Positions 3,664 through 19,622 of a DNA stretch of 20,353 nt are shown here, in pieces. The stretch is from a virus. The position numbers and the translations under genes were made by a program. A model generated the notes under the pieces. That model saw only the letters and a list, made by a program, of their open reading frames with translations, was not told the DNA's origin and searched no databases. The stretch spans positions 1 to 20,353 of the IMG/VR virus record IMGVR_UViG_3300009422_000066; one strand, written 5' to 3'. Numbering within the stretch: the first letter of the stretch is position 1; each line of letters begins with the position of its first letter.

Positions 3664-3673
3664 CTGGGTACTC

Positions 3674-4081: not shown

Positions 4082-4086
4082 GTAAT

Positions 4087-4215: not shown

Positions 4216-4240
4216 TAGCGCTAGATGAGGCTGAGCGCGG

Positions 4241-4435
4241 TCAGTCTTTGGGAGCGTTATTCTTAATCGTCTGGCGCGTAACCAGCATGTCTGTGGCTTT
4301 GGTCCCGATATCAACGCCGCTATCAGACAGAACACGGACGGCTTCCCAGATGGCTGATAATCCATCTCCATCTATTTTTGCATATTCGGTTTTCCTAGCC
4401 TTGTCAGGGTCCACATGAACATATCGCTTACCCAT
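4241..4435 (-). CDS. Hypothetical 64-aa protein
   Basis: Starts at the ATG 4435, with AGAGGT followed by about 6 nt, and overlaps the end of the previous gene (stop 4428-4430) by 8 nt. This supports it as a real, coupled gene. The sequence begins MGKRYVHVDPDKARKTEYAK and is basic and soluble, with a short amphipathic helix (GLSAIWEAVRVLSDSG). It ends in a Lys/Asn-rich tail. No family recognised. It is the last gene before the 159-nt gap, so it closes the tail-fibre group. An overlapping 60-aa frame at 4189-4371 is a shadow. Confidence 0.6.
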   Translation of the reverse strand: MGKRYVHVDPDKARKTEYAKIDGDGLSAIWEAVRVLSDSGVDIGTKATDMLVTRQTIKNNAPKD

Positions 4436-4814
4436 TTTGAACCTCTACTTCTACAGTAACATGCTGTGCATTTTGCAGCGTAAGCGTAAACACTCCCGTA
4501 ACATTCGACTCTAATTCAACCGTGCCATCCATCTCAATCGTCATCTCGCCATCGGGCCATATAACAGACGTATGAGCTGGAACATTAGAAATAACTGGGC
4601 CTTGCACTGAAATCTCAAACTCCGTTTTCTCTTCAACGACCCCTTCACTTACCCAATGCATGTCAATAGAAGCGCCTCCGGTGTGCCATAAATAACCTAC
4701 GGCAGCCGGCAGGCCAGATATCATCGCGTCAGCAGCCTCCGAATTTTCGTCTAGGCCGCACTCAATGATCTGGATGCCGCCATCAATAAGGGCGTAAACA
4801 ATACATTGCCTCAT
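4428..4814 (-). CDS. Hypothetical 128-aa protein downstream of the J-like fibre
   Basis: The start is the ATG at 4814, with AGAGGTG about 5 nt upstream, 2 nt after the stop of the J-like gene. A longer frame from 4829 lacks such a signal. The protein begins MRQCIVYALIDGGIQIIECG and is acidic. The second half looks all-beta: WPDGEMTIEMDGTVELESNV, then alternating hydrophobic residues to the end, like a small beta-sandwich. No family is recognised. Small proteins with a similar N-terminal style often lie next to phage fibre genes, so an accessory tail or assembly role is possible, but this is inference from position. Confidence 0.65.
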   Translation of the reverse strand: MRQCIVYALIDGGIQIIECGLDENSEAADAMISGLPAAVGYLWHTGGASIDMHWVSEGVVEEKTEFEISVQGPVISNVPAHTSVIWPDGEMTIEMDGTVELESNVTGVFTLTLQNAQHVTVEVEVQNG

Positions 4815-4816
4815 GT

Positions 4817-6649
4817 TCACCTCTTGCAAGAATTAACGGTCAGAGTAGACGATAAGATTTTTACTTTCGCGCCTCGTATGAATACCTGAAAAGCGACCCG
4901 ATCTGTTCGCACACCGGCAGCGTTGACGTAGTTGTCAGTGGCAGCGTTGTAGGCTCCAACCGGACCACTGGTTGCCCCGCTAAAACTCACAGGGATCGTG
5001 ATGTTGCTCGATGAAGATCCGTTATTGGGAAGCGCAAATTCTCCCGTAAAGAAACCGTGTGCGCTGGTGCTGCCGGTGATAGGATTGCCCATCATTGCGT
5101 ACATTATTAGACGGGCAGTATCGTTATCCCCAAGGTCCGCCGTTTCCACTAAAGCGTTGACAGTAAACATGACCCTTCCGCCGTCCGTAATGACCATTTT
5201 TTCTAGCACATCTACACCAGCAGAAGTCTGCGGATTTGTATCTCCAAATACGCCGAGTGTATTCGCAACATAACTCCAGTTATTGTAAGTTCCGTTTCCC
5301 CCATGAGCTGAGCTTGGATATATTTGAGCATATGATGTAATCGATGGGACCGTGACTGCATCTCCATCGATCTGTAGGGTTTTGATTCTGGCTCCAGCTG
5401 CGAGAGTGAGAGTGTTAGCTGTAATCGAACCAGTAATAACTGCGTCAGTCGCCCAAAGCAATCCGCCTGCGCTGGCTGTGGGGCTTCCGGCTGGCCCATC
5501 TCTCAAATACAAACCCCACCCCAATACAGGCGGAGTGCCAAACGGAGCAAAACCAACGCTGGTTATTGAGTCGGCAACTGCTGCACTTGTAATATTCGCA
5601 GTCGCTATATTAGCAGTAGTAATTGTGCCTGTTCCGATTGTGGCGGTAGTAATCTGAGCGTCATGAATGAAGGCATCGTTGATGTAGGCTCCGGCAGGGA
5701 TAACAACATTGTTTCCTGCTGCATCAAGAACATTATTACCATCGTCATCTAAAAGAGTGTGATTAGTCGTGAAGACCTTAAATGGGAACTCATTTTCTCC
5801 GACAGCACTATTGGCGCTGGAATTGGCGTTGAATGGCGCGGAAATCGCAAATCTATCTGCCGCTACTATAAAAGCAGATGTAGTTGCTCCTGCAAGATTA
5901 ACGTCTGAAATAATTCCAAATCCAGCTACATGACCGTTTAGGTCTGTCTTAACTGCATACTTGGTGTCTGTTAATTCGATTGCTGTAGTATTGTCGCCTA
6001 GCGCGGTTGTTAAGCCGAGTCCGCTAACATCGTCAGCTAAAATGTCATCGATTAATCCAGATACATATAGATAATCTAGCGCTGTTGTGGCGGCGGTTCC
6101 TGCGGATTGGTTAAAAGGGCCAGCCACTCCATCTATGTTGCGCCCTCTAATCCAGTAGTAATACTGAACTCCACTGGAAACTAGAGTGTCATCAAAAAAT
6201 GCATTGCCTGCAAGATTGTAATTTGCAATAGGTCCGGCTGTCGTAGCCAAAGTAATATTGTCTGTGGGATAACGGTAAATCTCCATTGAGCCAAAGCCGC
6301 GATAGGCGTTCATTTGCCAAGACAACCGGACAAAGCCAAACCCTCCGGTAGCGTTTAGATTAAAAGGCTTCGGCGGAATCTCAACGCCTCCGTCAGGCGG
6401 CGCTGTAGGGTTGACAAGAAGTGGAGGAGCAACCGATCCTGTCGTTAATGTCTGGCCTACCGCGAGCTGCAAGATATTTGCGTCAAGCAAGTCTCTAAAG
6501 GTGACGGCTCTGTCTATCTGCTCTCCACGGCGACCCGCAAGAGTATCAACACTTTCAGCGATAGAGTCTGCAAATTTTCGCTCCTGACCGGCATACTCAC
6601 GCGGAACAGTCGCAACGCTTTTCCGGCGATTCTGGCTGATGTTTATCAT
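4817..6649 (-). CDS. Central tail fibre / host-specificity protein, J-like (FN3 and DUF1983-like regions)
   Basis: 610 aa from the ATG at 6649. GGAG 5 nt upstream and an ATGA overlap with the previous gene's stop fix this start. Residues about 15-65 are charged and helical. About 90-190 form a fibronectin-III-like domain (PPKPFNLNATGGFGFVRLSW, later QYYYWIRGRNIDG). About 226-335 (YAVKTDLNGHVAGFGI, SAFIVAADRFAISAP, AYINDAFIHDAQI) match the DUF1983 pattern typical of the C-terminal part of lambda J-type tail-tip proteins. About 334-364 show a Thr/Ala/Ile periodic run suggesting a beta-helix. The C-terminal 200 residues are beta-rich and probably form the receptor-facing part. Lambda J is much longer, so this is a shortened fibre-like version without the baseplate-hub half. 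Confidence 0.75.
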   Translation of the reverse strand: MINISQNRRKSVATVPREYAGQERKFADSIAESVDTLAGRRGEQIDRAVTFRDLLDANILQLAVGQTLTTGSVAPPLLVNPTAPPDGGVEIPPKPFNLNATGGFGFVRLSWQMNAYRGFGSMEIYRYPTDNITLATTAGPIANYNLAGNAFFDDTLVSSGVQYYYWIRGRNIDGVAGPFNQSAGTAATTALDYLYVSGLIDDILADDVSGLGLTTALGDNTTAIELTDTKYAVKTDLNGHVAGFGIISDVNLAGATTSAFIVAADRFAISAPFNANSSANSAVGENEFPFKVFTTNHTLLDDDGNNVLDAAGNNVVIPAGAYINDAFIHDAQITTATIGTGTITTANIATANITSAAVADSITSVGFAPFGTPPVLGWGLYLRDGPAGSPTASAGGLLWATDAVITGSITANTLTLAAGARIKTLQIDGDAVTVPSITSYAQIYPSSAHGGNGTYNNWSYVANTLGVFGDTNPQTSAGVDVLEKMVITDGGRVMFTVNALVETADLGDNDTARLIMYAMMGNPITGSTSAHGFFTGEFALPNNGSSSSNITIPVSFSGATSGPVGAYNAATDNYVNAAGVRTDRVAFQVFIRGAKVKILSSTLTVNSCKR

Positions 6650-8316
6650 CGAATCTCCGCAGGACACTCAGCAAAAGATATTGAGTGTATCTCTCGCTTT
6701 GTTGTTACCTTAGAGCCAAAGCAGTGATCCTTGTATCCGCTTGGCAGGCGAAATGTTATCTCGTTTACTGTGTCAGGAATTGTTTCCGTGTGTGTAATGT
6801 CCGAGAGAGAAGGCTCATCCAAGGCGTCCGATGATAATAACTTAACAACGGTATTGCCCGCACCCAGATTATCTCCAAAAGCAACTCTAGCGGCTCCAAG
6901 ATTAATTGGCCTTGCGGAATAATAGTGTCGAGAGACCCATTCTGCCTCAAGATAATCGGTACTGGCAGCAAACTTTTTTACAGATCCGCCAGAAACAACG
7001 TACAGTGCATCATCTTTTGTGGAGCTGAATCCTGAATTAACCTCACCGGCTGTATGTTTTGTAAACGCGGCCTTGCCGCCCCGTGGGTCAAAAATAAAAC
7101 CGGTGACACCGTCAACCGCATCGTGAAATGCAACATACTTTCCTTCCCACAAAAACGCCGTAACCGAAGCTGGACTATGAGCTGCGAGCCAACCCTCTGA
7201 AGAAAATAGAGACTCGGTTGCTAACGCTGCGCCGGATGAGGAGACTCTCACTAGCCCTTCCGTACTGCAATAGATCACAGAACCTCCCATGTCTACGGCG
7301 GAGGTGGCGCTGCTAATTGGGTAGGGGACGTTAAGCTCCGTCATAACCATGCCGGCAGGGTCCGCGCCCTGCACAATATATGGCTTTCCTTCAGTCATAA
7401 CTAGCAAGCCTGTTTCAAGAGGCTTAATCGCTGTAATATTATATTGAGTGGTGAGTTGATATCTTTTAGGCCAAGCGTGTGGAAGGAAAGCTTCAGAAAA
7501 ACACACTGTCTGCTCTTTAAATCCAGCGCAAATTCCGTTAGACATCGAACACAGCCCGCTCATTCCGACTGGTGGAGCATTCCAGTCTTGAGAAATCAAC
7601 ACTTCACCCAGCGCGGCGTCCAAGACGGTATCCGTAAACGCAGCAGATGTAGTTGCTGACACTTGGGCCACAAAGCGGAAAGAACCACTAGCGTCTGTTC
7701 TGTATATTCTGTGGTATACAATATTGCGCTGAGCAGCAGAAGAAGCTGCCAGTGTAAGCGCGACAGTTTGATCAGACCTGACATCTAGAATAGCTGTCGG
7801 CACTGAAGGTGGACCCTCTTCACCGAAAGCCGTGTAATGCGTAACCACATAAGCTCTGCTGACAGCCGTTTCTGTCTCGGTTTCCGCAGAGTTTATAGGA
7901 GAAATAGTTTGAGATGGGGTCGCCGCCACAGGTAGACCAAGAAAAAAAGCTGTTGTTGGTGCTGTAGTAGTAGAGACCAGAACAAAAGAACTAGTAGAAT
8001 TATAGCCGTTCGCGTAAACGCGGTTGTGTGCGTCTTCTGCGATAGGACTGTCGATTGCAGTCCAGCTGTCAAAGTTAATGTAATTAAACCATGACCCGTC
8101 ACGGGCTTGAAACAGCAGCTTGCTGCTGCTGGTAGGTGCTGCGGTGCTAGTGCCTCCAGCGATTGTAATAGATGCACTAGCCATCGCCTTAATAGGCCGC
8201 AGTGTTCCTGCATCTAGGTCTGCGTTAACAATAGAGACCGCCATGTCTTCAGGCAGTAGTCGAGGTGATATTTTTTCAGCCATCCCGCGAAACAGACCAA
8301 CTGTAACCGCAACCAT
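6646..8316 (-). CDS. Beta-propeller-like tail or head-closure structural protein
   Basis: 556 aa from the ATG at 8316, with an excellent AAGGAG 6 nt upstream. The N-terminus (MVAVTVGLFRGMAEKISPRL then LPEDMA...NADLDAGTLRPIK) is the pattern of large phage structural proteins that open with 'I..R.LP...A....N.DL..G.LRP'. Residues about 132-240 look like an FN3-type insert (AYVVTHYTAFGEEGPPS, YHRIYRTDASGSFRFV). About 245-450 have repeated beta-blade segments (GICAGFKEQTVCFSEAF, GLLVMTEGKPYIVQG, SVIYCSTEGLVRVSS, KYVAFHDAVDGVTGFIFDP). Possible analogues are the P22 gp10 or T7 gp12 class of tail-closing or nozzle proteins; I cannot distinguish them. It overlaps the J-like gene by 4 nt (ATGA), so the two products may act together. 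Confidence 0.7.
   Translation of the reverse strand: MVAVTVGLFRGMAEKISPRLLPEDMAVSIVNADLDAGTLRPIKAMASASITIAGGTSTAAPTSSSKLLFQARDGSWFNYINFDSWTAIDSPIAEDAHNRVYANGYNSTSSFVLVSTTTAPTTAFFLGLPVAATPSQTISPINSAETETETAVSRAYVVTHYTAFGEEGPPSVPTAILDVRSDQTVALTLAASSAAQRNIVYHRIYRTDASGSFRFVAQVSATTSAAFTDTVLDAALGEVLISQDWNAPPVGMSGLCSMSNGICAGFKEQTVCFSEAFLPHAWPKRYQLTTQYNITAIKPLETGLLVMTEGKPYIVQGADPAGMVMTELNVPYPISSATSAVDMGGSVIYCSTEGLVRVSSSGAALATESLFSSEGWLAAHSPASVTAFLWEGKYVAFHDAVDGVTGFIFDPRGGKAAFTKHTAGEVNSGFSSTKDDALYVVSGGSVKKFAASTDYLEAEWVSRHYYSARPINLGAARVAFGDNLGAGNTVVKLLSSDALDEPSLSDITHTETIPDTVNEITFRLPSGYKDHCFGSKVTTKREIHSISFAECPAEIR
6655..6658 (-). promoter_or_regulatory. Shine-Dalgarno GGAG fixing the J-like fibre start
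   Basis: GGAG followed by ATTCG and the ATG at 6649 on the minus strand, all inside the last codons of the upstream gene. It argues against a longer start at 6667. Confidence 0.6.
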
Positions 8317-8337
8317 ATTTGACTCCTTGTTAAGATT

Positions 8338-8535
8338 CTACTGCGGATCTTCTAGCATTCTAGTCAGCTTGGTTAAAAAAACCTCTCGCGCTACGGTGAT
8401 CTGGTCTAGCTTAAACCGGCAATCAACAGATTGCTGCGCTAAATCGCTGACCTGTCGAACCAAATAGTTTTGCTCGTCACTAAGATTCTCCGTTTCATAT
8501 TCCTTGCCGTTAACCATAATTTTGCTGTTGTTCAT
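8338..8535 (-). CDS. DUF6447-like small protein
   Basis: 65 aa starting MNNSKIMVNGKEYETENLSD. The pattern I-x-V-N-G-K-E-Y-x-x-x-x-L-S-D-E followed by a helical segment with an Arg/Ala/Thr-rich end is what I remember of the DUF6447 family, small proteins of unknown function common in phages of marine bacteria. It is soluble with no membrane segment. It sits 9 nt downstream of the holin-like gene and 21 nt upstream of the propeller-like gene. Family assignment is by motif memory; function unknown. Confidence 0.65.
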   Translation of the reverse strand: MNNSKIMVNGKEYETENLSDEQNYLVRQVSDLAQQSVDCRFKLDQITVAREVFLTKLTRMLEDPQ

Positions 8536-8544
8536 ATTAGTTTC

Positions 8545-8988
8545 TCATTCTTTGTTGCCAAACCTTTTTAGCGCTGCGCCGGCTAGGTCTCCCATAAAAG
8601 GAGCAGCAAAATAAAACCCAAGTATTAGCATGACCGCAGAAACCATTTGCTCTCCAGCAGCATCAGCGATAGCCGCTGAAGCCTGTAGCTGACGCAAAGA
8701 TTCTACGCTGTCGGCCCAAACAGCGAGTATAGACAGCATGGTTGACATCCAGTACATCGCCAGCCAAGTTCCGGTAATCGAAAATGCAATAAGGCGTCTA
8801 GCAAGTCGAGATCCGGTAGATGCTGCAACCCATTCAATAACCATGCTTCTAGCTTTATCTGCGGCTAGAGCCTTAGCGGACGCCTCTTCTTGATCGGTGT
8901 AGAAAGACTCGTCAATAAGATCTTTGGCGGTATCTACCACTTTGGCTAAAGCCTGATCTGAACCAAATAGTTTTCCAAAAAAACTCAT
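8545..8988 (-). CDS. Putative holin, gene-transfer-agent 3TM type
   Basis: 147 aa from the ATG at 8988, 4 nt after the stop of the DUF6127-like gene. A GTG at 9021 gives 11 more residues but overlaps that gene. The N-terminal half is soluble and charged (MSFFGKLFGSDQALAKVVDT onward). Residues about 60-91 (GSRLARRLIAFSITGTWLAM, then a hydrophobic stretch) and about 115-131 (VSAVMLILGFYFAAPF) are membrane segments, followed by a Lys/Arg tail. This layout fits the 'holin of 3TMs, for gene-transfer release' family. Its expected role is to permeabilise the inner membrane at lysis. No Shine-Dalgarno is evident, so translation may be coupled. Moderately sure of the family. Confidence 0.65.
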   Translation of the reverse strand: MSFFGKLFGSDQALAKVVDTAKDLIDESFYTDQEEASAKALAADKARSMVIEWVAASTGSRLARRLIAFSITGTWLAMYWMSTMLSILAVWADSVESLRQLQASAAIADAAGEQMVSAVMLILGFYFAAPFMGDLAGAALKRFGNKE

Positions 8989-8992
8989 AATA

Positions 8993-9268
8993 TTACTGCG
9001 TCCAATTTTTAAACCAAACACCAGTGACTAAAGCGCCAAGCAGTGCCACCGTAAGAACCTTAATCACCGTATGTGCAACAGATCTTCTAACCTCTCTCCA
9101 TGAATCTAACAAGCCGCGCAGTTCTTTTAGGTCATGTATGGCTTCATCATCATGCAGTCCGACATTTTGCAGCGCCTCTTTAGCGCCAGCCAACGCAGCT
9201 CTTTTAATTACGTCTTCAAGATCATCTGTTGACCTTCTGTCATATATCTGGACCACTGTCTTCTCCAT
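8993..9268 (-). CDS. DUF6127-like membrane-anchored protein
   Basis: 91 aa from the ATG at 9268 (MEKTVVQIYDRRSTDDLEDV). A GTG at 9310 would add 14 residues and overlap the upstream gene by 22 nt; neither start has a strong Shine-Dalgarno. The middle reads DLKELRGLLDSWREVRRSVA and is followed by a single C-terminal membrane helix (about residues 67-85) and a short polar tail. This D-L-R/K-x-L-R-x-L-L-x-x-W-R-E-x-R-R plus TM layout matches DUF6127, found in phages and gene-transfer-agent-like clusters beside holins. An antiholin or lysis-accessory role is possible; the evidence for that is location only. Confidence 0.65.
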   Translation of the reverse strand: MEKTVVQIYDRRSTDDLEDVIKRAALAGAKEALQNVGLHDDEAIHDLKELRGLLDSWREVRRSVAHTVIKVLTVALLGALVTGVWFKNWTQ

Positions 9269-9288
9269 CGCAGAATTAGTCAGCAAAG

Positions 9289-9582
9289 CTATCCGCTTAT
9301 CTTCGCCCACACAAAAAACGCTGGTATTCCGACAATCAGAAGAGGCAATACTACCGCGTACAAATGTCCCATAAAATATGCACTAGCCCTGCATGATTCC
9401 ACAAACAAATCAGTATAGCTGTGCGTGTCAGGTGCATTTTTAAATCGCAGCCAGCTGGGCTTCATGGCAGTCTTTAGTATTCTATACTCAGACCCAAGCT
9501 TCCCTAGATTCCGCCTGAAACCATCTTTGCCTACATAGTCATCGGTAAATAATTTTGTGATCCAGACCTTAAACTTTTTCAT
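9289..9582 (-). CDS. Small single-TM protein of unknown function
   Basis: 97 aa, MKKFKVWITKLFTDDYVGKD onward, with AAAGGA 8 nt before the ATG at 9582. The first 60 residues are basic and probably cytoplasmic. Residues about 74-93 (LYAVVLPLLIVGIPAFFVWA) form one membrane helix near the C-terminus, so it is a tail-anchored-like protein. No signal peptidase or lipobox motif is visible, and no family is recognised. It begins the run of three membrane proteins after the tail fibre, hence a possible part in lysis or superinfection exclusion, inferred from context. Confidence 0.65.
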   Translation of the reverse strand: MKKFKVWITKLFTDDYVGKDGFRRNLGKLGSEYRILKTAMKPSWLRFKNAPDTHSYTDLFVESCRASAYFMGHLYAVVLPLLIVGIPAFFVWAKISG

Positions 9583-9617
9583 GTCGAATATCCTTTGAAG
9601 TTTACAATTCCTGACAT
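9579..9617 (-). CDS. Possible 12-codon leader ORF coupled to the small membrane protein
   Basis: Between the fibre stop and the ATG at 9582, the minus strand has AGGAG, 9 nt, then ATG and 12 codons (MSGIVNFKGYST). The stop TGA overlaps the next start as ATGA. Both signal and overlap are what a real coupled mini-gene would show, but the length is so short that chance cannot be excluded. Confidence 0.25.
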   Translation of the reverse strand: MSGIVNFKGYST

Positions 9618-9632
9618 CTAATTTAACTCCTA

Positions 9633-12600
9633 TTAACCTATATCAGCGTACTGATATGTACAGACATGCGTTTGCACATGATCAGTAGCTCCGGTTGTTG
9701 AACCGTTAGTAAGGATAAAATTAACAGTCGCCGTTTGAGGGGCGGCCAACCACTCTAGATACCCACTACCATCAAGCGTAAGAGTAGGGTACAGGTAGTC
9801 ATGGTTGGCAAGAGAAGGTGGGGTCGCATCTGTTTTACCTATAATCTCGCTTATGAAGTGACTAGTGCTAAAGAGCGACGGCAGCGGCCCCAAGCTGACA
9901 AAATATTTACACATGCTGGAATACGGGTAGTTGAGACCGCCGAGAACCAGTACGCCTGTGGTTAGAATAGTAAATTCACCAGCGTATTTTAAGGTGTTGG
10001 TTTGGTTATTTAACCAACTGAATGTCATTGCCGTTTTCGGTTCGTGGTTGCCCGAACCATCAAGCGTTGTTGTGATTGTGGCTTTCTGAGATAGGTTAAA
10101 CGGACCCGCAGGTACTACAGAGTTGCCCTGACTGATATTGCCCGAAGAGTCTGTTATTACATAAGCGGATGTTGCGGGAGCGGCAATAGTCCCTGCTGCT
10201 GCCGTTAATTTAAGAGGCCCATCTATTTCTACATTTCCAGCAGCCCTAGTAGCTGTACTACAATTATTGTTCTTCAGCGTGTACGGGTGCTTATTTGCTG
10301 CCCTGCCGTTAATTGTTGTATTGCCAGCCAGCATATCCCATGCGTCATTAATTGGAGTCGATGAATTGGATTCGCCCAGAAGCTCCTTCGCCCCTATTTC
10401 TCCAAATAAATTTGTGGCATCTCCATCGAAATGTATGCCATCTCCTTGGTGCGCTAGTCCTGTCGAGCTGACATACGAAAAGAAGCTACCGCCCTTTACG
10501 GCCAGAGCTGAAGCGCCGTTCCATTTGTACGGTGGAAATAAGATAGGGTTATTGTTGGCATCGACTGGTGGCAAAGGGTTTGTTGGATTATCAAGCCTGT
10601 TAAAGTGGTCGTGTATATCGTATACAAATACTCTTGTGCGATAGTCCTCAAACCACTTCGTGTTAGAATCCTTCATAGAAGCAAGCCAGTCTGTGGCCCA
10701 AGAATTTGCGTCTTTTGTTGCATTAAACAAAGGGTCTGCGTCCGACTCACCTTGCATGATGTTTAAAATGTCAGGTGACGTTATTCCCCACTCAGACAAC
10801 TCCTGTGTTGCAAGCACTGCTGTCATCTGGGTGTTTAGTGTTCCGTAAGTAGAACCACTGGTACTGTCCCAGTAGTCAGAATTGCCACCATCCCTACTAA
10901 CCTGTAGCACATAAACATTCCGTCCAGACTTTTCGGCAATATACTCAGCCATAGCAAGATGTATGTTGCCTACATTGCCGCCTTTATAACCAATATAGTC
11001 AGTGCCGAGGGAGGGAAGCAAGGCTGTGGGATAATCAGCTTTTACGGTGCTAAATAACCGATTTGGCTTTATCCAATCTAATGCTGTTTGAGGAACATTT
11101 GTGTCTCCCACGGTGGCCCAATCTTTCACTAGGTTGTTTGTGTAAAGACCAGCACTGGTTTCATCCAAACCCGCGCTGTTGCTCTGACCTGTTCCAACAA
11201 TAAATATTGGCCGACCAGCAGGAAACTGAGCTAACCAGTCCAAATCAATATTAGGGGTAGTGCCATCCCTTGGAGCTTTTACAGGCATCTCTAAGCACAG
11301 TCGCGCTGTGTCTTGACCTATTTTAATATTCGATATCGTGTTGGGGTGGATATAGTCTTGTGTACCGTAAACATTCTGTACTCTTGACCCACTAGTTCCT
11401 ACTTTAAAGCCTGTTATGCCTCCAAAAGGGCTTGGGACGGTTCTGTACAGCGTACCAGTGACATTAGAAAAACGATTTAAACCATCAAAGTTTTTCCAAG
11501 CTTCTGCTCCTCCGCCTGCCAATTCAGACCCAGCAGGTGTGTCAATAGAAAACCAGCGAGTGTGTTGGTTTTTAGCCCAGCCGCCGCCAGCAACCGCAGC
11601 AACGCCTCCGTCACCAGCAGCTTCGTTAAGAGCCGGATCACTGGTAGTCCCTTCTGCGGCCTGCGTAAAAGCAAGCATATTTTCAACATATCTCTGGCTA
11701 GCTCTTTCCAGATTTCTAAAATTATTGTTATTTTCCCAGCTGCTTGCAACGATAGTACGAGAAGCATCACCTTGACCGAGGGTATCACCGCAAAAATCGA
11801 CATAAGAGAGGTTGGGAAATGCAGCAGGCATGCCAGCTGTGCCAGCTTGTATAGATGCAAGCGCATTGGCTAGTGCTGTGGTATGCCAGTACCACATGTT
11901 GTTATTCGCTGTTTCTCCACTGGAGATCGCATAGTTAGAATCTGAGCTTGCACTAATAGTGCCTATGCCAGCCGTTATTAAGGAAGGGTGAACCAAATCA
12001 CTGGTTGCCCCGCTAAGTGTCGTTAAGACAAGAAGCACTGTCCCACCAAAAATTTCTTGAAGCTCATTTGCGGCTGCAAGGGCTGGAGACCCTCGTTGAC
12101 CTTTAACATATCCTGTCATCCTCCCTGCATAAGAAGGAACGCTGGGGTCTGTCAGGTCAGGAATAATAGGCGTAGCACTGTGATCGGCTGTTTGCCAAGA
12201 CGCAGTTTGGGTGTCAATGTCAGAAGCCTGCCAGATTAATACATTGGGATTAGCAACCAAGGGTACGTCTGGCTCTTCCGTGAGAAACCCTGCGCTATTA
12301 CTATTTCCAACCCACGATACGACAATTGGTTCTCCGACAGACTTAGAGGGCCATACGTCTAAAACTGACTTGACAGCCACATAATCTTCTACCAACCCCG
12401 CTGTCATTCTTAACTCAAACGTATCACCGACACCAAACGCAAGAGCTGTAGTCCCTTGCTGAGATCGCACTATCGTTGCCGTGTTACCAGTGATAGCTGT
12501 AATCTTAACAATCTCGTTATCAGATGGGGTAGCCGTCTTGGCTATCGTTGCATAGGTGTAATCCCCAGCACCCAGCGAAGGAAAAGCGCTCAGGCTGACG

Positions 12601-12677
12601 CACTCAGCAGTCGGACTACTGGCCGACAAGATATTTGACAAGAGTGTGCTTGCGTTGTTAGAGAATTTTACAGCCAT
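9633..12677 (-). CDS. Tail fibre/spike with two tandem SGNH-type carbohydrate esterase domains
   Basis: 1014 aa from the ATG at 12677, with AAGGGG 7 nt upstream. Residues 1-105 look like the fibre N-terminal attachment domain common in phages (GNTATIVRSQQGTTA, GVGDTFELRMTAGLVEDY). About 117-465 and 488-765 are two SGNH hydrolase-like domains. The first has GNSNSAG (124-130) and DYIH (441-444); the second has GQSNSAG (497-503), MQGESDA (641-647) and DGIH (746-749). Block I Ser with a late D-x-x-H is the catalytic arrangement of SGNH esterases; GQSN plus QGES resembles the sialate O-acetylesterase/CE6-like group. Residues 765-1014 are beta-rich, perhaps for trimerisation or receptor binding. 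Expected role: binding and de-esterifying (for example deacetylating) host surface polysaccharide. Substrate unknown. Confidence 0.8.
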   Translation of the reverse strand: MAVKFSNNASTLLSNILSASSPTAECVSLSAFPSLGAGDYTYATIAKTATPSDNEIVKITAITGNTATIVRSQQGTTALAFGVGDTFELRMTAGLVEDYVAVKSVLDVWPSKSVGEPIVVSWVGNSNSAGFLTEEPDVPLVANPNVLIWQASDIDTQTASWQTADHSATPIIPDLTDPSVPSYAGRMTGYVKGQRGSPALAAANELQEIFGGTVLLVLTTLSGATSDLVHPSLITAGIGTISASSDSNYAISSGETANNNMWYWHTTALANALASIQAGTAGMPAAFPNLSYVDFCGDTLGQGDASRTIVASSWENNNNFRNLERASQRYVENMLAFTQAAEGTTSDPALNEAAGDGGVAAVAGGGWAKNQHTRWFSIDTPAGSELAGGGAEAWKNFDGLNRFSNVTGTLYRTVPSPFGGITGFKVGTSGSRVQNVYGTQDYIHPNTISNIKIGQDTARLCLEMPVKAPRDGTTPNIDLDWLAQFPAGRPIFIVGTGQSNSAGLDETSAGLYTNNLVKDWATVGDTNVPQTALDWIKPNRLFSTVKADYPTALLPSLGTDYIGYKGGNVGNIHLAMAEYIAEKSGRNVYVLQVSRDGGNSDYWDSTSGSTYGTLNTQMTAVLATQELSEWGITSPDILNIMQGESDADPLFNATKDANSWATDWLASMKDSNTKWFEDYRTRVFVYDIHDHFNRLDNPTNPLPPVDANNNPILFPPYKWNGASALAVKGGSFFSYVSSTGLAHQGDGIHFDGDATNLFGEIGAKELLGESNSSTPINDAWDMLAGNTTINGRAANKHPYTLKNNNCSTATRAAGNVEIDGPLKLTAAAGTIAAPATSAYVITDSSGNISQGNSVVPAGPFNLSQKATITTTLDGSGNHEPKTAMTFSWLNNQTNTLKYAGEFTILTTGVLVLGGLNYPYSSMCKYFVSLGPLPSLFSTSHFISEIIGKTDATPPSLANHDYLYPTLTLDGSGYLEWLAAPQTATVNFILTNGSTTGATDHVQTHVCTYQYADIG

Positions 12678-12688
12678 CTGACAGCCCC

Positions 12689-13120
12689 TTAGCTTGCTTG
12701 TACGGTCCAGACTATAGTCAAAGCGTCTGACGCGGATTTATTAACAACAGGAAACACCGTCCTGCACAGCATGCTTCCACCGGAAGCTGCGTTTAGTAAT
12801 GCCGCTTCAGTAATTGCGCTGTTAGACGCAGGAGTGCCAGCAGGAAACTGGGTAGTATAAGTGACAACTGCGCCAGCAACAGATGAGCTGATAAGCGCTA
12901 TTCTAGCCACTTCTGTTTCTGCCGCCGTATTGGCAACAACAGCCGCCGTGGTGCCTGTGCCGATTGCCATGTGACTCATGACGGCAGTTGAGTTACTCTG
13001 CATGCGAGCGGCGACAAATTCTTTTCCTGCCGTTACAACCAGATTTGGAATCTCTCGGACTACCTCGTTGTTTAAATAAACGCAGAGCCTTCCTGTCAAG
13101 GTTAAATTGTCGCTGTGCAT
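12689..13120 (-). CDS. Putative tail/fibre-associated structural protein
   Basis: 143 aa from the ATG at 13120, with AAGGAG 7 nt upstream. It contains MAIGTGTTAAVVANTAAETE (about residues 50-69), a strand with VVTYTTQFPAG, then SAITEAALLNAASGGSMLCR and TVFPVVNKSASDALTIVWTV near the C-terminus. I recall this 'hxIGTGTT...ETE...F.AG...I.EAxLxNA..GG.MLxRTVFP...K...D.L.I.WTV' pattern from phage structural proteins encoded beside tail fibres. Its precise place in the virion is not known to me. It lies 11 nt upstream of the esterase fibre, so it may be a fibre adaptor. Confidence 0.65.
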   Translation of the reverse strand: MHSDNLTLTGRLCVYLNNEVVREIPNLVVTAGKEFVAARMQSNSTAVMSHMAIGTGTTAAVVANTAAETEVARIALISSSVAGAVVTYTTQFPAGTPASNSAITEAALLNAASGGSMLCRTVFPVVNKSASDALTIVWTVQAS

Positions 13121-13131
13121 AACTGTTCTCC

Positions 13132-13608
13132 TTATGCGTTAAAATTAGAGCTGTTAATTATCGATTCATTAAAGACTGAGCTGCTTGACCCAGACGAAAG
13201 GAATTGTAAGCAAACATCTGCCAGCCCCATACTGTCAGTCAAGGAAGATGCAAACCCAACCGATATGGAGGCATTGTCGCTAAACGAAAAATCATCGACT
13301 TGGCCCATTTGAAAGTTTGCCGAAAAATTGTCCAATAGGTCATAGCCCACTAAAATCGAATCTGACACAACAAGCGCGGCGGTGACTGACACTGCGTCAT
13401 TAATTACCGTGGCTTCCGCTAAGGGCGCTAATCCAAAGTTGAGACTCAACGTATCTACGGCAAAAAAGGTGTCATTATTCTGTTGAAAAGCCATATATGC
13501 ATTTTGTGTTACAACAGCCTGAAGAGATGACTGCGATGACGATACACTCAGTTCTAGTACAGAAACCGTGGTGGCAAGATTTACTTTAGTCCATATCGCC
13601 CTTAGCAT
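13132..13608 (-). CDS. Small beta-repeat protein of the tail cluster, unknown function
   Basis: 158 aa. Its ATG at 13608 overlaps the TAA of the upstream gene by 1 nt (TAATG). The protein is rich in Ser, Asp, Val and Leu with no membrane segment. Residues 52-118 contain four copies of D-x-h-S-h with alternating hydrophobic residues: DTLSLNFGL at 52, DAVSVTAAL at 71, DNFSANFQM at 93 and DNASISVGF at 111. They are spaced about 18-22 residues apart, as in an elongated beta-solenoid or stacked hairpins. The C-terminus is Ser/Asn-rich. No family recognised. A fibre or fibre-linker role is suggested by composition and location. Confidence 0.65.
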   Translation of the reverse strand: MLRAIWTKVNLATTVSVLELSVSSSQSSLQAVVTQNAYMAFQQNNDTFFAVDTLSLNFGLAPLAEATVINDAVSVTAALVVSDSILVGYDLLDNFSANFQMGQVDDFSFSDNASISVGFASSLTDSMGLADVCLQFLSSGSSSSVFNESIINSSNFNA

Positions 13609-13982
13609 TAGTCAAAGCCATTCCTAACCTTCATCTTTAAAAGATCAGGGACCGTATGCTTTGCACCGTTATAATAGTTAACCTCAATCTCACCCTCAAA
13701 CAGCCCTGCCGTGCTAAGCGTACCTTCAGGAAAAATTAGTATCGCTTCGCCTTGAGCGCCGTTTAGCACAGTAAAAGATAAAGTAGACGAGACCAGTAGC
13801 GATCCTATAGGTCTCATTCTCATAACAACTGTCGCATTACTGAGATTGACAGGCGACCACGTTTCTGAGTTTTCTTCGTCAAGTATCTTGCCGGCAGCAG
13901 CCAGACTGGAGTCTTTTAAATTCAAAGTAAGCTGCGGAAGGGTGTCGCCGGTTACTAGGTTAATTGTCTGAAAATAAGCCAT
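13608..13982 (-). CDS. BppU-N-like immunoglobulin-type domain protein
   Basis: 124 aa from the ATG at 13982, with AGAGGAG 5 nt upstream. The order GDTLPQLTLNLKDS (12-25), NLSNATVVMRMRP (46-58), an all-beta middle with GAQGEAILIFP (75-85), GLFEGEIEVNYYNG (93-106), and TVPDLLKMKVRNGF (110-123) is that of the N-terminal Ig-like domain of lactococcal phage baseplate upper protein (BppU_N). Here the domain stands alone. It widely serves to attach fibres or baseplate parts, so this small protein may link the fibres to the tail. Context agrees: it lies between the head-tail adaptors and the fibre. Confidence 0.7.
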   Translation of the reverse strand: MAYFQTINLVTGDTLPQLTLNLKDSSLAAAGKILDEENSETWSPVNLSNATVVMRMRPIGSLLVSSTLSFTVLNGAQGEAILIFPEGTLSTAGLFEGEIEVNYYNGAKHTVPDLLKMKVRNGFD

Positions 13983-13992
13983 TGCCGCTCCT

Positions 13993-14616
13993 CTATATAA
14001 AAGCTCTGCCGCGTACTGTTAAAGCTGCACCAGCGTAGCCGTACCTGACCTGTCTCATAATTTCTGTCGATCTTTTCTCAAACAACATTTTGTTGCCTTG
14101 AGCTTGATTCATGTTAGACCAGATCTGATCAGGCATCATTTGCAGTCTATACAATGCGCCGTGGATTAGTGCCTCGCGATATTCCTTTCCTACGGTATCC
14201 GGTATGGAGGAAGACGTTGAGCTGGGCTTTAGCGAGTACAGAATTTTTAGCTTTTCACTTACGGCAGGAACAGGCGCTAAGAAGAACTCTTTATTATCTC
14301 TCTGAGAATATACTTTTGGCGTAGACTTCTCAGATCCATCACCAGTGATCTCTAGCAGGCGAGAGTATGAAACGGGGGTAAGTTTTTCTCTGTCTCTGTA
14401 AACATCAATAATATGATTTAACTCCGTGCCTACGGGTATGGTTAGCGCATACTCTGTTATTCCCGCAGTAATAATAACGTCCTCCGGCTCTGGCCGAAAA
14501 ACATCTGTGGCAATACAAAAATCAATAGCTGAATCCCTGACGGACCTTTCTAAAATAAAATCAGGAACGCCTTGAGCTTCTGCTCTAATATAGGGACTAA
14601 GATCTAAATATTTCAT
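13993..14616 (-). CDS. Head-tail adaptor-like protein (second copy)
   Basis: 207 aa from the ATG at 14616, 11 nt after the stop of the first adaptor gene; the Shine-Dalgarno is weak. Parts: GVPDFILERSVRDSAIDFC (about 16-34, the helical start typical of these connectors), a strand-rich middle with HIIDVYRDREKLTPVSYSRL, then KVYSQRDNKEFFLAPVP (about 101-117), and a helical C-terminus with YREALIHGALYRLQMMPDQ. It shares its layout with the preceding 229-aa gene: 'h-I-D-V-h-R', then 'F-h-h-x-P', then a helix. Expected to sit between portal and tail. Assignment by pattern and location. Confidence 0.65.
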   Translation of the reverse strand: MKYLDLSPYIRAEAQGVPDFILERSVRDSAIDFCIATDVFRPEPEDVIITAGITEYALTIPVGTELNHIIDVYRDREKLTPVSYSRLLEITGDGSEKSTPKVYSQRDNKEFFLAPVPAVSEKLKILYSLKPSSTSSSIPDTVGKEYREALIHGALYRLQMMPDQIWSNMNQAQGNKMLFEKRSTEIMRQVRYGYAGAALTVRGRAFI

Positions 14617-14627
14617 AGCTAGCGGCT

Positions 14628-15299
14628 CTAGGCGCTCCGGTTAGGTAGGATAGGAAGCGGGTCCATTGCCGAATCAGTTCTGGTTTTCATGCCTAGCGCA
14701 TTGGCAAAAGCAGAGTAATGCATCATCGCTCTCTCGCTGTTGCCGGCGTACTCGCTGTCTTTTTGATACGAGCGATACAAGATGAAATCGACAATACAGT
14801 TGCCATACACATCGTCTACAGAAATTGTTGTGGTATCGGTTGAAAAGTTGGTAATGACAACATCTGGCAAAGCAGCACTAATCACAATTTCAAGAGTCAT
14901 CGCGGTTGTCGCTTGCGGATACACATAAAAGTTTTTAGGGTCCGCAGAGTCGTAAATAAAATGCTCTACCTTCTTTATGGGGTCCGCAATACTGTTGTGC
15001 CAGTCCGGCAGGGTCTCATCTAATAGTCTTCGGTCTATCTGGGTTATTGACCGCCCACCAGCTTCATTTCTTATTACATCAACAAGTCGTAAAGCGGTGG
15101 AAGGCAAGCTCTGCTTGCTACCTGTGGCGCAAGTAAAAGATTGGTTGATGGTGTTGGCGTCAGGGCGATTAAGAACAACCTCTCGCTGCGCGTCATTAAA
15201 AAACTTTAGCAGCTCGGCATTCGGATAGCGGACATTGGCAGCATCTTGCAGTATGATGCTCGCCCTTCCAATAAGGTCTGTGACCTTAGTTGTTGCCAT
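14628..15299 (-). CDS. Head-tail adaptor protein (DUF6682-like)
   Basis: 223 aa starting MATTKVTDLIGRASIILQDA. I chose the ATG at 15299 because GGGAG lies 7 nt upstream; a TTG at 15317 has no such site. The first helix pair (DLIGRASIILQD, YPNAELLKFFNDAQREVVLN), LPSTALRLVDVIRNEAGGRS, VEHFIYDSADPKNFYVYPQA and the helical C-terminus are the order I remember for phage adaptor proteins of the DUF6682 type. These bind below the portal ring. It overlaps the previous gene's end by 14 nt, giving coupling. Good confidence in a connector role, less in the exact family name. Confidence 0.7.
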   Translation of the reverse strand: MATTKVTDLIGRASIILQDAANVRYPNAELLKFFNDAQREVVLNRPDANTINQSFTCATGSKQSLPSTALRLVDVIRNEAGGRSITQIDRRLLDETLPDWHNSIADPIKKVEHFIYDSADPKNFYVYPQATTAMTLEIVISAALPDVVITNFSTDTTTISVDDVYGNCIVDFILYRSYQKDSEYAGNSERAMMHYSAFANALGMKTRTDSAMDPLPILPNRSA

Positions 15300-15564
15300 C
15301 AGTCTGCTCCCACTCAATAATTAGCAAGTCAGGATGTTTGGCCCATATAGGGTCGTAAGCAAACTCGTTGCCCGTAATAATATTTCGGACCCGCTTCGGT
15401 ACTTGCTCTGGAGTAGCAGCGGTGTCTGTATCAACTCCAGAGGTTTTTAATCTTTCAAGCTGGTCATAGAGATCCGCGCAAGTCATTCTGCGGTCCAGCT
15501 GAACGCCGAAGTCTTTCTTGGCTTCAGCAAATATTTGGTCTTTCTTTGTTGGAGCGTCAATCAT
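15286..15564 (-). CDS. Small conserved head-region protein, unknown function
   Basis: 92 aa from the ATG at 15564 with only a weak GGATG upstream. The N-terminus is helical and charged (IFAEAKKDFGVQLDRRMTCA, then DLYDQLERLK). A Thr/Asp/Ala linker follows (about 42-54). The end reads VPKRVRNIITGNEFAYDPIW and then an acidic tail. Such short proteins with a helical head and an 'h-R-N-h-x-T-G-x-x-F-x-Y' end lie after the coat gene in many podoviruses. A head decoration or completion role would fit, but I do not recognise a named family. It is the first gene after the probable terminator. Confidence 0.6.
   Translation of the reverse strand: MIDAPTKKDQIFAEAKKDFGVQLDRRMTCADLYDQLERLKTSGVDTDTAATPEQVPKRVRNIITGNEFAYDPIWAKHPDLLIIEWEQTDGNN
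15307..15311 (-). promoter_or_regulatory. Shine-Dalgarno GGGAG deciding the adaptor start at 15299
   Basis: GGGAG, CAGACTG, ATG on the minus strand, within the end of the preceding gene. It supports the ATG at 15299 over the TTG at 15317. Confidence 0.55.
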
Positions 15565-15592
15565 AGTGCATCCAGTTATTCTGATAATAAGA

Positions 15593-15612
15593 GGGGGAGG
15601 TTGCCCTCCCCC
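15593..15612 (-). terminator. Hairpin terminator after the major capsid gene
   Basis: The minus strand reads GGGGGAGG, GCAA, CCTCCCCC: a perfect 8-bp G+C-rich stem with a GNRA-type tetraloop, followed by TCTTATTATC. The T tract is interrupted, so termination may be partial. The site, directly after the coat gene and before the tail genes, is where podoviruses often reduce transcription. Confidence 0.6.
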
Positions 15613-15623
15613 GCTTAACGATT

Positions 15624-15638
15624 GGACTTATTAAGTCC
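15624..15638. repeat. Palindrome over the major capsid stop codon
   Basis: GGACTTA, T, TAAGTCC: perfect 7-nt arms around one base, covering the capsid TAA stop. As RNA it would fold into a short hairpin just before the terminator stem. Confidence 0.5.
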
Positions 15639-16503
15639 ACTTACCGATCACAAGCGCGTCAGGCACTACGACTTTGGAGCCGTAAACCTTCAGGCCACGA
15701 ATGCCGTCACCAAAGGTGCTTTCCAGTCGCACAGTCTCAGTGTTAGTAAACTGAGAAGCGAAACAGGTCGCCTTGGGGTGACCCGCCATAACGTGTGTAT
15801 AGCCGGCGTCTGCACCAGATGCTGGCGTATACAGCATGTTGCTGCTGAAGACTTTAAAGCGGTCAACCACACCAACCTGACCATTACGCAGTGGCGATGT
15901 GCCATCACCTGTCAGGTAAGCCTGTCGGAGTTCAGACAGCTTGAGCAGCGAAATAAACTCAGGCGAAAGAACGATGAATCGCCCTTCTTCTGGAATATTC
16001 AGCTCATCAAGCGCTTGACCCATGCTCAGAATCGAGGCGAGTATGCTGCCTGAAGTTTGAGTAGCCTGCGCCTGAATAGTCGTAGCACCAGTCACTATGC
16101 TAGATAGGACTTGAGTCTCAACAGCAATACGCATTTGCTCAGCAGCATCACCAGATGCGGCAGCAAGCATGTCGATATCACCTTGAGCTTTCAGGATGTC
16201 ATCGACTTTAAAAGCGTAGCTTTTAGCCTGATCAATGTTCAGCTCGACTGTGCTGGTAGTCAGGTTTGAATAGCTGACAGTACCAGTATAGTCGGCAACT
16301 GAGACAGTGGGGACAGTACGGATGTGTACCTTGTCGCCCTGACCAGAGATTTCGCCTTCGTAGTCGGTGTTAGAAATAGCAGGAAGAACCGAAGATTTAT
16401 AAAACTTCGCCTGCAACATTTTTGAAAAGACTTCGGGTATGAAGCCACCTTGGTTGGCCGCGTAAGTAAACGCTGCGCCCGATCCATTTGCACCAATAGC
16501 CAT
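15631..16503 (-). CDS. Major capsid protein
   Basis: 290 aa, MAIGANGSGAAFTYAANQGG onward, with AAAGGT about 9 nt before the ATG at 16503. The N-terminal part (GGFIPEVFSKMLQAKFYKSS then VLPAISNTDYEGEI...GDKVHIRTVPTV) and the helix region (YAFKVDDILKAQGDIDML, DAAEQMRIAVETQVLSSI) are the signature of a widespread HK97-fold coat family in podoviruses. The C-terminal half holds FIVLSPEFISLLKLSEL and DRFKVFSSNML, then FASQFTNTETVRLE and a final VYGSKVVVPDALVIGKW. The order scaffold, coat, adaptors is canonical. Many copies form the icosahedral shell. Confidence 0.88.
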   Translation of the reverse strand: MAIGANGSGAAFTYAANQGGFIPEVFSKMLQAKFYKSSVLPAISNTDYEGEISGQGDKVHIRTVPTVSVADYTGTVSYSNLTTSTVELNIDQAKSYAFKVDDILKAQGDIDMLAAASGDAAEQMRIAVETQVLSSIVTGATTIQAQATQTSGSILASILSMGQALDELNIPEEGRFIVLSPEFISLLKLSELRQAYLTGDGTSPLRNGQVGVVDRFKVFSSNMLYTPASGADAGYTHVMAGHPKATCFASQFTNTETVRLESTFGDGIRGLKVYGSKVVVPDALVIGKWT

Positions 16504-16528
16504 GATAAATTACCTTTCTGACAATAGT

Positions 16529-17425
16529 TTATTGCCGGATGTCTCCTTGGTTCATGGCCGCCAAAATTGCATCTTGATTTTTTTCAAAATCAGTATTAGA
16601 CATTCTGGTAATATCCGCCACGGTCCAAGTTTGTTTTCCGGAACCTGTATTGGGTTTTCTGGATTTAGGGAGCTTCGGCTCTGCCGCTGCCCTTCCTTTT
16701 GCCAGTACCCTCTCTTGCGCCGTAGGTTGAGCATAACCACTGTCCACTTTGAACTTCGTCAAAACTGCAATGACATCGTTGCTAGAGCCGGACTCTACCC
16801 ATTGATGTACTTGCCCATTTTGCTGCTCCATCCAATCGTCCCAGTCTCCCGTCCCGACAATAGCGTCTAGGTCTGGGTGGGACTCTCGTATGAGATCCAT
16901 GTGAGCCGCTTGCGCTGTACGCTGGGCTTCTTCATGCCTCATCTGATGAAGTTGTTCTAATGCACCTGTAGCTTCTGCCACCTTTGCTTGCGTCCTTTCC
17001 ATCTCATCAAGTATAGGAGCCGCAAGATCGGGGTATTCTTCCCTCACTTGTTTAAGCGCCTGTACATCGACATCTTTTTCTGCAAGCTGATTCTTCAAAT
17101 TTCCCAGCTCAGCCATGATCTGCTCGTTTTGCCTTCGCAGTTCTTTAGCCTCAGTGGTTGCCTGAGTCATCTTCCGTTGAGCATTCCTGTAGCGGTCATC
17201 GGCCTTTTTTTGCGCCAACTCCTCTTCCGACACATCGCCGCCTGTATCTTCTAAGGGAATCTCTTGCTCAGATTCAGCCGTATCCGCAGATTCTTTGGGG
17301 GCTGTTGATTTGCGAGTTCGGGCTTCTGTCGGTGTGTCCCCTTCGGGTTCCGCTGGAATGCCTCTTGCTTCGCGCATCATCTCTTGAGCTTCCGCTTCAA
17401 GTGCTTCTGGATCTACTTTTGCCAT
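16529..17425 (-). CDS. Capsid scaffolding protein
   Basis: 298 aa from the ATG at 17425, with AAGGAA about 8 nt upstream. Strongly charged and low in hydrophobics. Residues 1-75 are acidic and disordered (Glu, Thr, Ala, Pro-rich). About 75-175 form a long coiled coil (ELRRQNEQIMAELGNLKNQL, then AEKDVDVQALKQVREE). The middle holds SHPDLDAIVGTGDWDDWM. The C-terminus is basic (KLPKSRKPNTGSGKQTWTV) and then helical. Acidic coiled-coil body plus basic end, immediately before the coat gene, is the hallmark of scaffolding proteins, where the basic helix contacts coat subunits. It guides procapsid assembly and leaves before DNA packaging. Confidence 0.82.
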   Translation of the reverse strand: MAKVDPEALEAEAQEMMREARGIPAEPEGDTPTEARTRKSTAPKESADTAESEQEIPLEDTGGDVSEEELAQKKADDRYRNAQRKMTQATTEAKELRRQNEQIMAELGNLKNQLAEKDVDVQALKQVREEYPDLAAPILDEMERTQAKVAEATGALEQLHQMRHEEAQRTAQAAHMDLIRESHPDLDAIVGTGDWDDWMEQQNGQVHQWVESGSSNDVIAVLTKFKVDSGYAQPTAQERVLAKGRAAAEPKLPKSRKPNTGSGKQTWTVADITRMSNTDFEKNQDAILAAMNQGDIRQ

Positions 17426-17452
17426 ACTACGGTTCCTTTTTGGGGGTGTCCG

Positions 17453-17659
17453 TTATTCAATACTGTGAGTTCGCTTTGGCGCTCTCTCAGCATCAAGAAC
17501 CGCAGATGCGGTTTTAGTTAGCCCCAGCATTTTGCGTAGCTCGTAAGCCCGCCCCTGCTGGTAGCGAAATTGTTTCTCGTCTGCCGCCTCTAGTTTTTCG
17601 AGAGCGTCAGATAGGTCGGCCTCCAGAAGGTGGACCAGATGGGGCCATTCCTCCGTCAT
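17453..17659 (-). CDS. Small 68-aa protein overlapping the portal gene end
   Basis: From the ATG at 17659, with AAGGTG about 7 nt upstream; the gene overlaps the last 53 nt of the portal gene in another frame. It reads MTEEWPHLVHLLEADLSDAL and then a charged helical run (KLEAADEKQFRYQQGRAYEL, RKMLGL). The tail is basic. A longer frame upstream of this ATG is only the portal shadow. No family is recognised; its helical, charged character and position between portal and scaffold suggest a head-assembly accessory. The gap to the scaffold gene is 27 nt. Confidence 0.65.
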   Translation of the reverse strand: MTEEWPHLVHLLEADLSDALEKLEAADEKQFRYQQGRAYELRKMLGLTKTASAVLDAERAPKRTHSIE

Positions 17660-19622
17660 TGACAGCACCTTGATCGCTCTGGCTTGCTTGGGCGAGCATG
17701 CTTTGTTGCTGTAGAAGTGCTTGCTGTTCGGCACGGATCTGATCCTCCGTCTTAATAACTTTTTCAGCATCAATCTCCATGCTCGCAGCGATGTCGCGCA
17801 AAAGCTTAGCGCGGTCAACGAGTCCTGCATCCATAGGGTTTGAGACCAGCGAAAGGAATTGTAATAAGCGCTGGCTTTGCACTTCTTTTTGAATAAGAGC
17901 AGTGCTTCCGCGAGCCACAATTTTCAAATCGCCTTTGGCTCGCTCGTTCGTTCCAAACTCCATATTAAAGTGGAACAATGATTCAATCATAGGGCGTATA
18001 AGGAAATCGTCAATATTTTTTATTGTGCTTTTAAGCGCCACGTTAGCAGCGCCCATCAACATAGACATACCTGTCGCTGTTTTATTTAAACCTTGCGACT
18101 GCTCGCCGTGCGTGTACGAAGGTAGAGATGTCGTTTCATCGGCAAACCGGCGAAAAATTTCAATGATTTGATTAAGGCCATTTGCGTTGGCGGTTGGCTG
18201 GTAGTATCGAACAGCCGGCATCGATCCATCACCACCAGAGCGCAGGAATACTCGCCAAGGATGAAGGTCTGTAGGATCTTCCCCTGCCGCGAGCAAATCA
18301 GTATTCACTTCTACCATTGGCCCAGAAGACAGGGCCATGTTGTCTAGCCAGATTCGGGTGGCAGCGTTCATCGTTTGCTGCGAATCACGCATCATCCTCG
18401 GCACACCTATGCCCCAAAATTGATGGGGGGTACGCTCGTAAGGAAAAATTTGGTACGGAATGCGGTATCCCTTTACCGCATTGAGCGAGGCTTTAATCAC
18501 CTTAGTTCCTGTGAGCCAGATGTTCGCATCAAACTCCTCGGACGGGTCGGAGCCTTCAGGAAGCTCAACGCCAGCGTCCATGAGGTCATAGCCATCGATG
18601 GAACCCCAGTATTCTAAAAGCTCGTAGCGGTGAGAGCTTTGATGTTGGTTAATGCCGGCAATATGCCGCCGTGTGCGCTCATGATTTTCTTCTGTGTGAT
18701 TCCCCTTGCGATTGTCTTTCAAGACAGACAGGATCATCTCGGTATCAAAAGAAGGAAGATCGGCCAAGTCTCTTAGCTGGCGGCGAGTAAGTATATGGCG
18801 GCGGAACAGCCCATCACAGTCTTCCAGTGTCGTGCAGTATGGATCTGGATACAGGTCAAAAATTGACACCGACTCAATTTCTGGGCGGACCTGTTCTTCC
18901 ACGCTCATTTGATAGCTTTCGTTGCCAAGATCGTCAGTGGCTAAAGAGTACGCCTTACTGGCTTCAATCTTAACCGTTCCACTTTTGATTGCGCCACTGC
19001 CATAAATACAGGCTTCCAGCATCGCCTCTTTTAATTTTTGATCCGCGTTTTGCTCAAGCAACTGGTCAGTAATGTCCGTCTGCATTTCTTTTGCTGCAAG
19101 CGCTGCCCAATCTTCCTCTTGCTGGCGTAGCCCTTTTTCAATGCGCTCTTCGTTTTCTAAAAAAACCTGTTGAATAACCTCCGGTGGCTGGCCTTGAGCC
19201 ATTGCCATGATGTTTTGCACCAAGTTTTGCTGCATTTGCATGCGTTTTCGCGGGTTTATGGTGGGTCTGGGGGTGGGCTTTATAGAGAAAAACTGGTCAG
19301 AAGTTTGAAACAAAAGGTCAACAATACGGCTATATGCCGCCATTACCTTAGTTCTGGTGAGTCCAACAAAGACTTTGCTGCGCTGTCCGGCTCCGCCGTT
19401 AAGCCTAGCAAGGATTTCAGGGCTGTACTGTCCGGAGAATTGACGGAGATCGTCTATCCATTCATCTTCAGTGTCTCTGCGGGCGTCTTTAAATTCATCA
19501 AACATCAAGCGCAGGCGATTGCCAATATTGGTTAGCTCGACATCTTGCTGCCCATCAGGGTTCTCAACGTCTATTCCTTCGTTGCCTTCAAATTCCTGAT
19601 CGTCTTCAAAATCTTCTTCCAT
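17607..19622 (-). CDS. Portal protein
   Basis: 671 aa, with the ATG at 19622 overlapping the terminase TGA by 1 nt (TGATG), so translation is probably coupled. The N-terminus is acidic (MEEDFEDDQEFEGNEGIDVE). Parts typical of portals of podoviruses follow: WIDDLRQFSGQYSPEIL, KVFVGLTRTKVMAAYSRIVD, then LLFQTSDQFFSIKPTP. Later come YGSGAIKSGTVK, FDLYPDPYC, the PYQIFPYERTPHQFWGIGVP segment and LNKTATGMSMLMGAAN (about 535-550). The C-terminus is helical and Gln-rich (EQQALLQQQSMLAQASQSDQ), suiting a barrel. It forms the dodecameric ring for DNA entry and exit at the capsid vertex and docks terminase. Confidence 0.88.
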   Translation of the reverse strand: MEEDFEDDQEFEGNEGIDVENPDGQQDVELTNIGNRLRLMFDEFKDARRDTEDEWIDDLRQFSGQYSPEILARLNGGAGQRSKVFVGLTRTKVMAAYSRIVDLLFQTSDQFFSIKPTPRPTINPRKRMQMQQNLVQNIMAMAQGQPPEVIQQVFLENEERIEKGLRQQEEDWAALAAKEMQTDITDQLLEQNADQKLKEAMLEACIYGSGAIKSGTVKIEASKAYSLATDDLGNESYQMSVEEQVRPEIESVSIFDLYPDPYCTTLEDCDGLFRRHILTRRQLRDLADLPSFDTEMILSVLKDNRKGNHTEENHERTRRHIAGINQHQSSHRYELLEYWGSIDGYDLMDAGVELPEGSDPSEEFDANIWLTGTKVIKASLNAVKGYRIPYQIFPYERTPHQFWGIGVPRMMRDSQQTMNAATRIWLDNMALSSGPMVEVNTDLLAAGEDPTDLHPWRVFLRSGGDGSMPAVRYYQPTANANGLNQIIEIFRRFADETTSLPSYTHGEQSQGLNKTATGMSMLMGAANVALKSTIKNIDDFLIRPMIESLFHFNMEFGTNERAKGDLKIVARGSTALIQKEVQSQRLLQFLSLVSNPMDAGLVDRAKLLRDIAASMEIDAEKVIKTEDQIRAEQQALLQQQSMLAQASQSDQGAVNDGGMAPSGPPSGGRPI

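Follow-up and report, generated by a model that had tools for sequence, protein, structure and literature searches.

Two diverged SASA-type SGNH domains in tandem within one tail fibre of an HMO-2011-like podovirus

In the IMG/VR virus record IMGVR_UViG_3300009422_000066, analysed over its whole length of 20,353 bases (referred to here as the window), a gene on the minus strand (9633..12677) encodes a tail fibre that serves host recognition in an HMO-2011-like podovirus, and this single polypeptide of 1014 amino acids (aa) contains a tandem of two diverged SASA-type SGNH domains, D1 and D2. Single SGNH domains in fibres are already well known; what is new here is the tandem of two diverged ones. 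With a probability of about 0.68, we regard the fibre as an anchor followed by two SASA-type SGNH esterase modules that were stacked by recombination, both predicted to be active, and a tip. The product combines a known N-terminal virion-anchor domain, a location in the tail module and a variable C terminus, the features of a tail fibre or receptor-binding protein. The anchor (residues 1-105, 12363..12677; this and all fibre features below are on the minus strand) matched phrog_8469 (2.7e-21) and the putative tail fibre in PDB 8jov (3.9e-11), and it is the sole part of the fibre matched by 77 other IMG/VR loci, whose C-terminal parts are unrelated.

Two SGNH domains in a single fibre

D2 (residues 481-767, 10377..11237), scanned as an isolated domain, matched the SASA family PF03629 with 24.9-25.0 bits, narrowly above the gathering cut-off of 24.8, and the scan of the full-length fibre gave 22.1 bits, below that cut-off. 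Read from its sequence, the domain has SGNH blocks I to III and block V in the expected succession, namely GQSNSAG with Ser499 (497-503, 11169..11189), RDGGNSD (595-601, 10875..10895), MQGESDA (641-647, 10737..10757) and DGIHF with D746-x-x-H749 (10431..10442). D1 (residues ~113-469, 11271..12341) is recognised as a homologue of the D2 family and from a fold model. Its blocks follow in the same order: GNSNSAG with the candidate nucleophile Ser126 (124-130, 12288..12308), LSGATSD (221-227, 11997..12017), which aligns with RDGGNSD of D2, LGQGDAS (300-306, 11760..11780), where Gly-Asp follows Gln302 instead of the Gly/Ser-Glu of the relatives, and D441-x-x-H444 (11346..11357), which the model places shortly ahead of its final helix. 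Translation of the open reading frame (ORF) confirmed Ser126, Asp441, His444, Ser499, Asp746, His749 and both GxSNSAG motifs at the positions given in an initial annotation made from the sequence alone, and the intermediate motif which it described as shared corresponds to the block II pair, while the block III pair had been overlooked. Its claim of two SGNH-like domains in series is likewise upheld, for D2 by the Pfam SASA match and for D1 by the fold match together with its relationship to the D2 family.

A one-to-one BLASTP comparison of D1 and D2 gave E = 4e-6, and when aligned together with five relatives, seven domains in all, the two share 24% identity. The profile of D2 and the five relatives scored D1 at 35.4 bits, as against 11.5 bits for the best of 2000 shuffles. 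The block I Ser, the block III Gln (Gln302 in D1) and the block V His are invariant in all seven aligned domains, among which D1 is the most divergent with 22-27% identity to the others, and the D1 segment HTRWFSID (372-379) aligns with R/HTRVFVYD in D2 and the relatives.

For the fold of D1, an AlphaFold model was computed from the seven-domain alignment, in which the D2 relatives were included. In domain numbering, the model comprises strand 10-17 followed by the Ser, helix 90-102, strand 106-113, helix 148-169, strand 182-189 followed by Gln-Gly-Asp, helix 210-234, strand 260-270, the DxxH motif and helix 339-355. This is the SGNH order of strands and helices, with Ser126 after strand 1, Gln302-Gly-Asp after strand 3 and D441-x-x-H444 before the last helix. 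The structure prediction proposed at the outset, run singly for D1 of the two domains, thus returned an SGNH-like fold at modest model confidence, and within this scope the anticipated adverse outcome, an SGNH fold in just one of the regions, did not arise. In a Foldseek search of the model against the PDB, the sole match below 0.001 was 2apj, Arabidopsis At4g34215 (E 5.3e-4, probability 1.00), with 363 columns covering the whole domain; we take this protein to be a carbohydrate esterase family 6-type acetylesterase. Weaker matches were the Xanthomonas acetylesterase XAC1771 (probability 0.77) and sialic acid esterases (SIAE; probability 0.35 and below). These are the closest folds of solved structure, 2apj being clearly first, but they are cellular enzymes rather than fibre modules and share 10-12% identity with D1. 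The top viral fold matches include the Vi maturation/adhesion protein of Salmonella phage Vi01 (4.7e-7) and the Vi06 fibre (1.7e-6). When the PDB was searched by sequence, both the domains and the profiles yielded chance-level matches only, and a model of the whole fibre from its single sequence reached a predicted local distance difference test (pLDDT) of 30 and was not used.

Catalytic residues and competing readings

Several results speak against two active esterase modules. In the isolated-domain scan, D1 matched no Pfam family, including SASA at E up to 5. Significant similarity of D1 to the D2 family is confined to blocks I and II (residues ~113-256, the first ~140 residues of the domain), and the second half alone ranked 29th among 3001 sequences, the others being shuffles (p ~0.01), so that there the case rests on the order of the motifs and on the fold model. 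This model has a predicted TM score of 0.65 with a low mean pLDDT of 51, its confidence is low at 113-151 and 270-337 (domain numbering), and since D2 relatives were part of the input alignment, the fold result is partly dependent on the D2 family and could be pulled toward SGNH. Because D1 holds a further DxxH at 227-230, this motif alone is weak evidence. Finally, three positions before the His, D1 and D2 both carry Asp, whereas the related loci L162-L166 have Glu, L086 (10498-11394) has Pro and L168 has Tyr, so that the family shows no constant acid for the triad; the relatives may work with a Ser-His dyad or with an acid supplied from elsewhere.

The most serious competitor, which we consider unlikely although credible enough to be weighed, holds that both domains have the SGNH fold and just one is active, the other being a degenerate copy that binds carbohydrate. 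It is in keeping with the divergence of D1, its Asn before the Ser and its block III Asp in place of Glu, and the Pro of L086 and the Tyr of L168 suggest that members of the family may lose catalysis. D1 nevertheless retains Ser126, Gln302 and a complete D441-x-x-H444, and D2 retains SGNH blocks I-III and DxxH like the Vi01 esterase; a binding-only copy is therefore less favoured, because both domains keep the Ser, the block III Gln-Gly, the His and the Asp three residues before it. In the favoured reading, both domains are probably active deacetylases.

In a second and very unlikely reading, D1 is not an SGNH enzyme, its likeness being local to the first ~120 residues and the remainder forming another binding fold. 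The restricted similarity, the marginal score of the second half and the two stretches of low model confidence would fit this, but the 2apj match extends over the whole domain, blocks III and V lie at the places expected from the fold, and the HTRWFSID segment aligns with D2 and the relatives.

That the tandem is a metagenome assembly artefact, as might be suspected from its complete form being seen in the window virus only, is scarcely credible and was rejected, given an identical gene on another contig, from a strain that differs slightly (18 single-nucleotide polymorphisms, SNPs), a frame open through 1014 codons and fibre segments of similar G+C.

Relatives and origin of the tandem

This second contig, IMGVR_UViG_3300009526_000122, is 99.89% identical to the window over 15.9 kb, and its fibre is identical (0 SNPs), which makes a single chimeric contig unlikely. 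With regard to the strains themselves, 17 of the 18 SNPs fall within capsid and portal genes spanning ~2.2 kb (window 15948-18105), and one base differs over the other 13.6 kb (window 2308-15947), a clustering that suggests recent recombination between strains.

The sister phage L086 (IMGVR_UViG_3300006947_000036) has a capsid protein 96% identical to that of the window virus, and across the capsid and portal genes the two DNAs run collinear with 79% identity; the fibre region diverges except for the anchor, and the likeness resumes beyond it. Its fibre (928 aa) occupies the same genome position and has the same anchor (41% identity in a 212-aa match starting at the anchor), but carries one SGNH domain, D2-like and with Pro instead of the acid before the His, and ends in a Peptidase_S74 chaperone, which the window fibre lacks. 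The fibres of L162-L166 resemble D2 at 50% identity and also have one SGNH domain, behind different N-terminal anchors. In the window fibre, D2 is followed by a linker and a C-terminal tip (residues 768-1014, 9636..10376), for which the Pfam scan gave no family match; L162 shares this linker (37% identity over 99 aa, E 2e-11), again behind a different N terminus. The simplest and most likely origin of the tandem would be a recombination by which an anchor-D1 fibre acquired D2, linker and tip as one module behind it.

One domain per fibre had been named as the usual state, and every relative found in this analysis indeed carries a single SGNH domain. The homologue search for the double architecture located the tandem only in the window virus and the near-identical contig: scans of IMG/VR with D1 alone, with D1 and D2 and with family alignments revealed no further D1 or tandem, and a family-profile search of 50 related virus records returned only the five relatives already in the model. 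No match to D1, D2 or the tip was obtained by tblastn against 50,697 phage records, within the sensitivity of tblastn, nor was a tandem found in 60 records with Vi01-type esterases. A profile search, run without a positive control, gave nothing in 385 genomes from the class surrounding a Sinorhizobium metagenome-assembled genome. In the open-access literature, we did not find tandem or two esterase domains within one phage fibre, although none of these searches, whether of sequences or of papers, proves absence.

Two candidate tandems were rejected. In Citrobacter phage NS1, the two places correspond to one esterase domain in two frames and a chance match elsewhere; the middle of its Vi-esterase-like gene (L176, 3347-5356) lies partly in another frame than in the relatives, which probably reflects a sequencing frameshift. 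The 'Two SGNH' of PMC13123978 are two separate proteins.

Genomic setting and possible biological role

The fibre gene starts with ATG and has its stop codon within its coordinates, and a ribosome-binding-like AAGGGG lies upstream at ~12685-12690. The genes around it encode a terminase, an SU10-like portal and a major head protein, along with an adaptor and a fibre-I-like protein as well as internal virion and fibre proteins. The best named relatives of the portal are from Pelagibacter, Roseobacter and Puniceispirillum HMO-2011 phages and Rhizobium phages (30-35% identity), and the assignment of the window virus to the HMO-2011-like podoviruses is based on this sequence likeness. A small gene adjoining the fibre (window 8993-9310) matched DUF6127 (2e-20), and two ORFs of 539 and 231 aa at window 202-2529 gave no confident match in the Pfam and PHROGs scans. 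In other loci (L002, L005, L009, L020, L023 and others), the anchor domain is often a stand-alone ORF of ~120 aa, which makes it look like an adaptor for separate fibre proteins. In L014, three consecutive fibre-like ORFs of ~480 aa each (7909-12247) begin with the same MSNLSELLP, fibre genes having multiplied at this locus.

Among characterised proteins, the Vi maturation/adhesion tail protein Vi01_171c of phage Vi01, with relatives in Vi II-E1 and Vi06, is comparable in being a virion tail protein with a PF03629/DUF303 acetylesterase, SASA-type like D1 and D2. Pfam assigns it one SASA domain (66 bits), and in a one-protein search the D1/D2 family profile matched its blocks I-III (GQSNAAG, GGRS, QGEEDA; i-E 1.4e-8), QGEEDA being the counterpart of MQGESDA in D2, as its DYTHF is of DGIHF. 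It differs from the window fibre in its single esterase domain and its different virion anchor, and there is no full-length similarity. The Vi01 esterase domain has been assigned to the acetyl groups of the Vi capsule (PMC3220722), and esterase activity is reported for G7C gp63.1 as well as for SGNH fibres from two Klebsiella prophages (PMC13123978). The deacetylating Schitoviridae fibres G7C gp63.1 and Possum gp66 are described as having a single SGNH domain, and it is by this description that they differ from the window fibre.

Under the favoured reading of two stacked, active modules, the N-terminal 105 residues would attach the fibre to the tail, and Ser126/His444 and Ser499/His749, each with the help of an acid, would probably carry out catalysis. 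During adsorption, the domains would then cleave O-acetyl or similar esters from the surface polysaccharide of the host, as the Vi01 and G7C fibres do. D1 and D2 may have different ester preferences, because they share 24% identity and D1 has extra insertions. Only tentatively, and with more doubt than confidence, we propose that two ester specificities would allow one virion to handle a polysaccharide with two kinds of O-acetylation or hosts with two types of coat, and that fibres can stack whole esterase modules in evolution, beyond merely swapping them.

The general view of fibre modularity is unchanged by the tandem. Phage fibres commonly carry one SGNH esterase domain, which can set the host range via O-acetylated capsule or O-antigen, and a natural tandem beside a sister phage with one domain offers a tractable test of whether stacking of enzymes brings a gain in range or activity. 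Furthermore, D1 and D2 together may provide a new pair of polysaccharide deacetylases.
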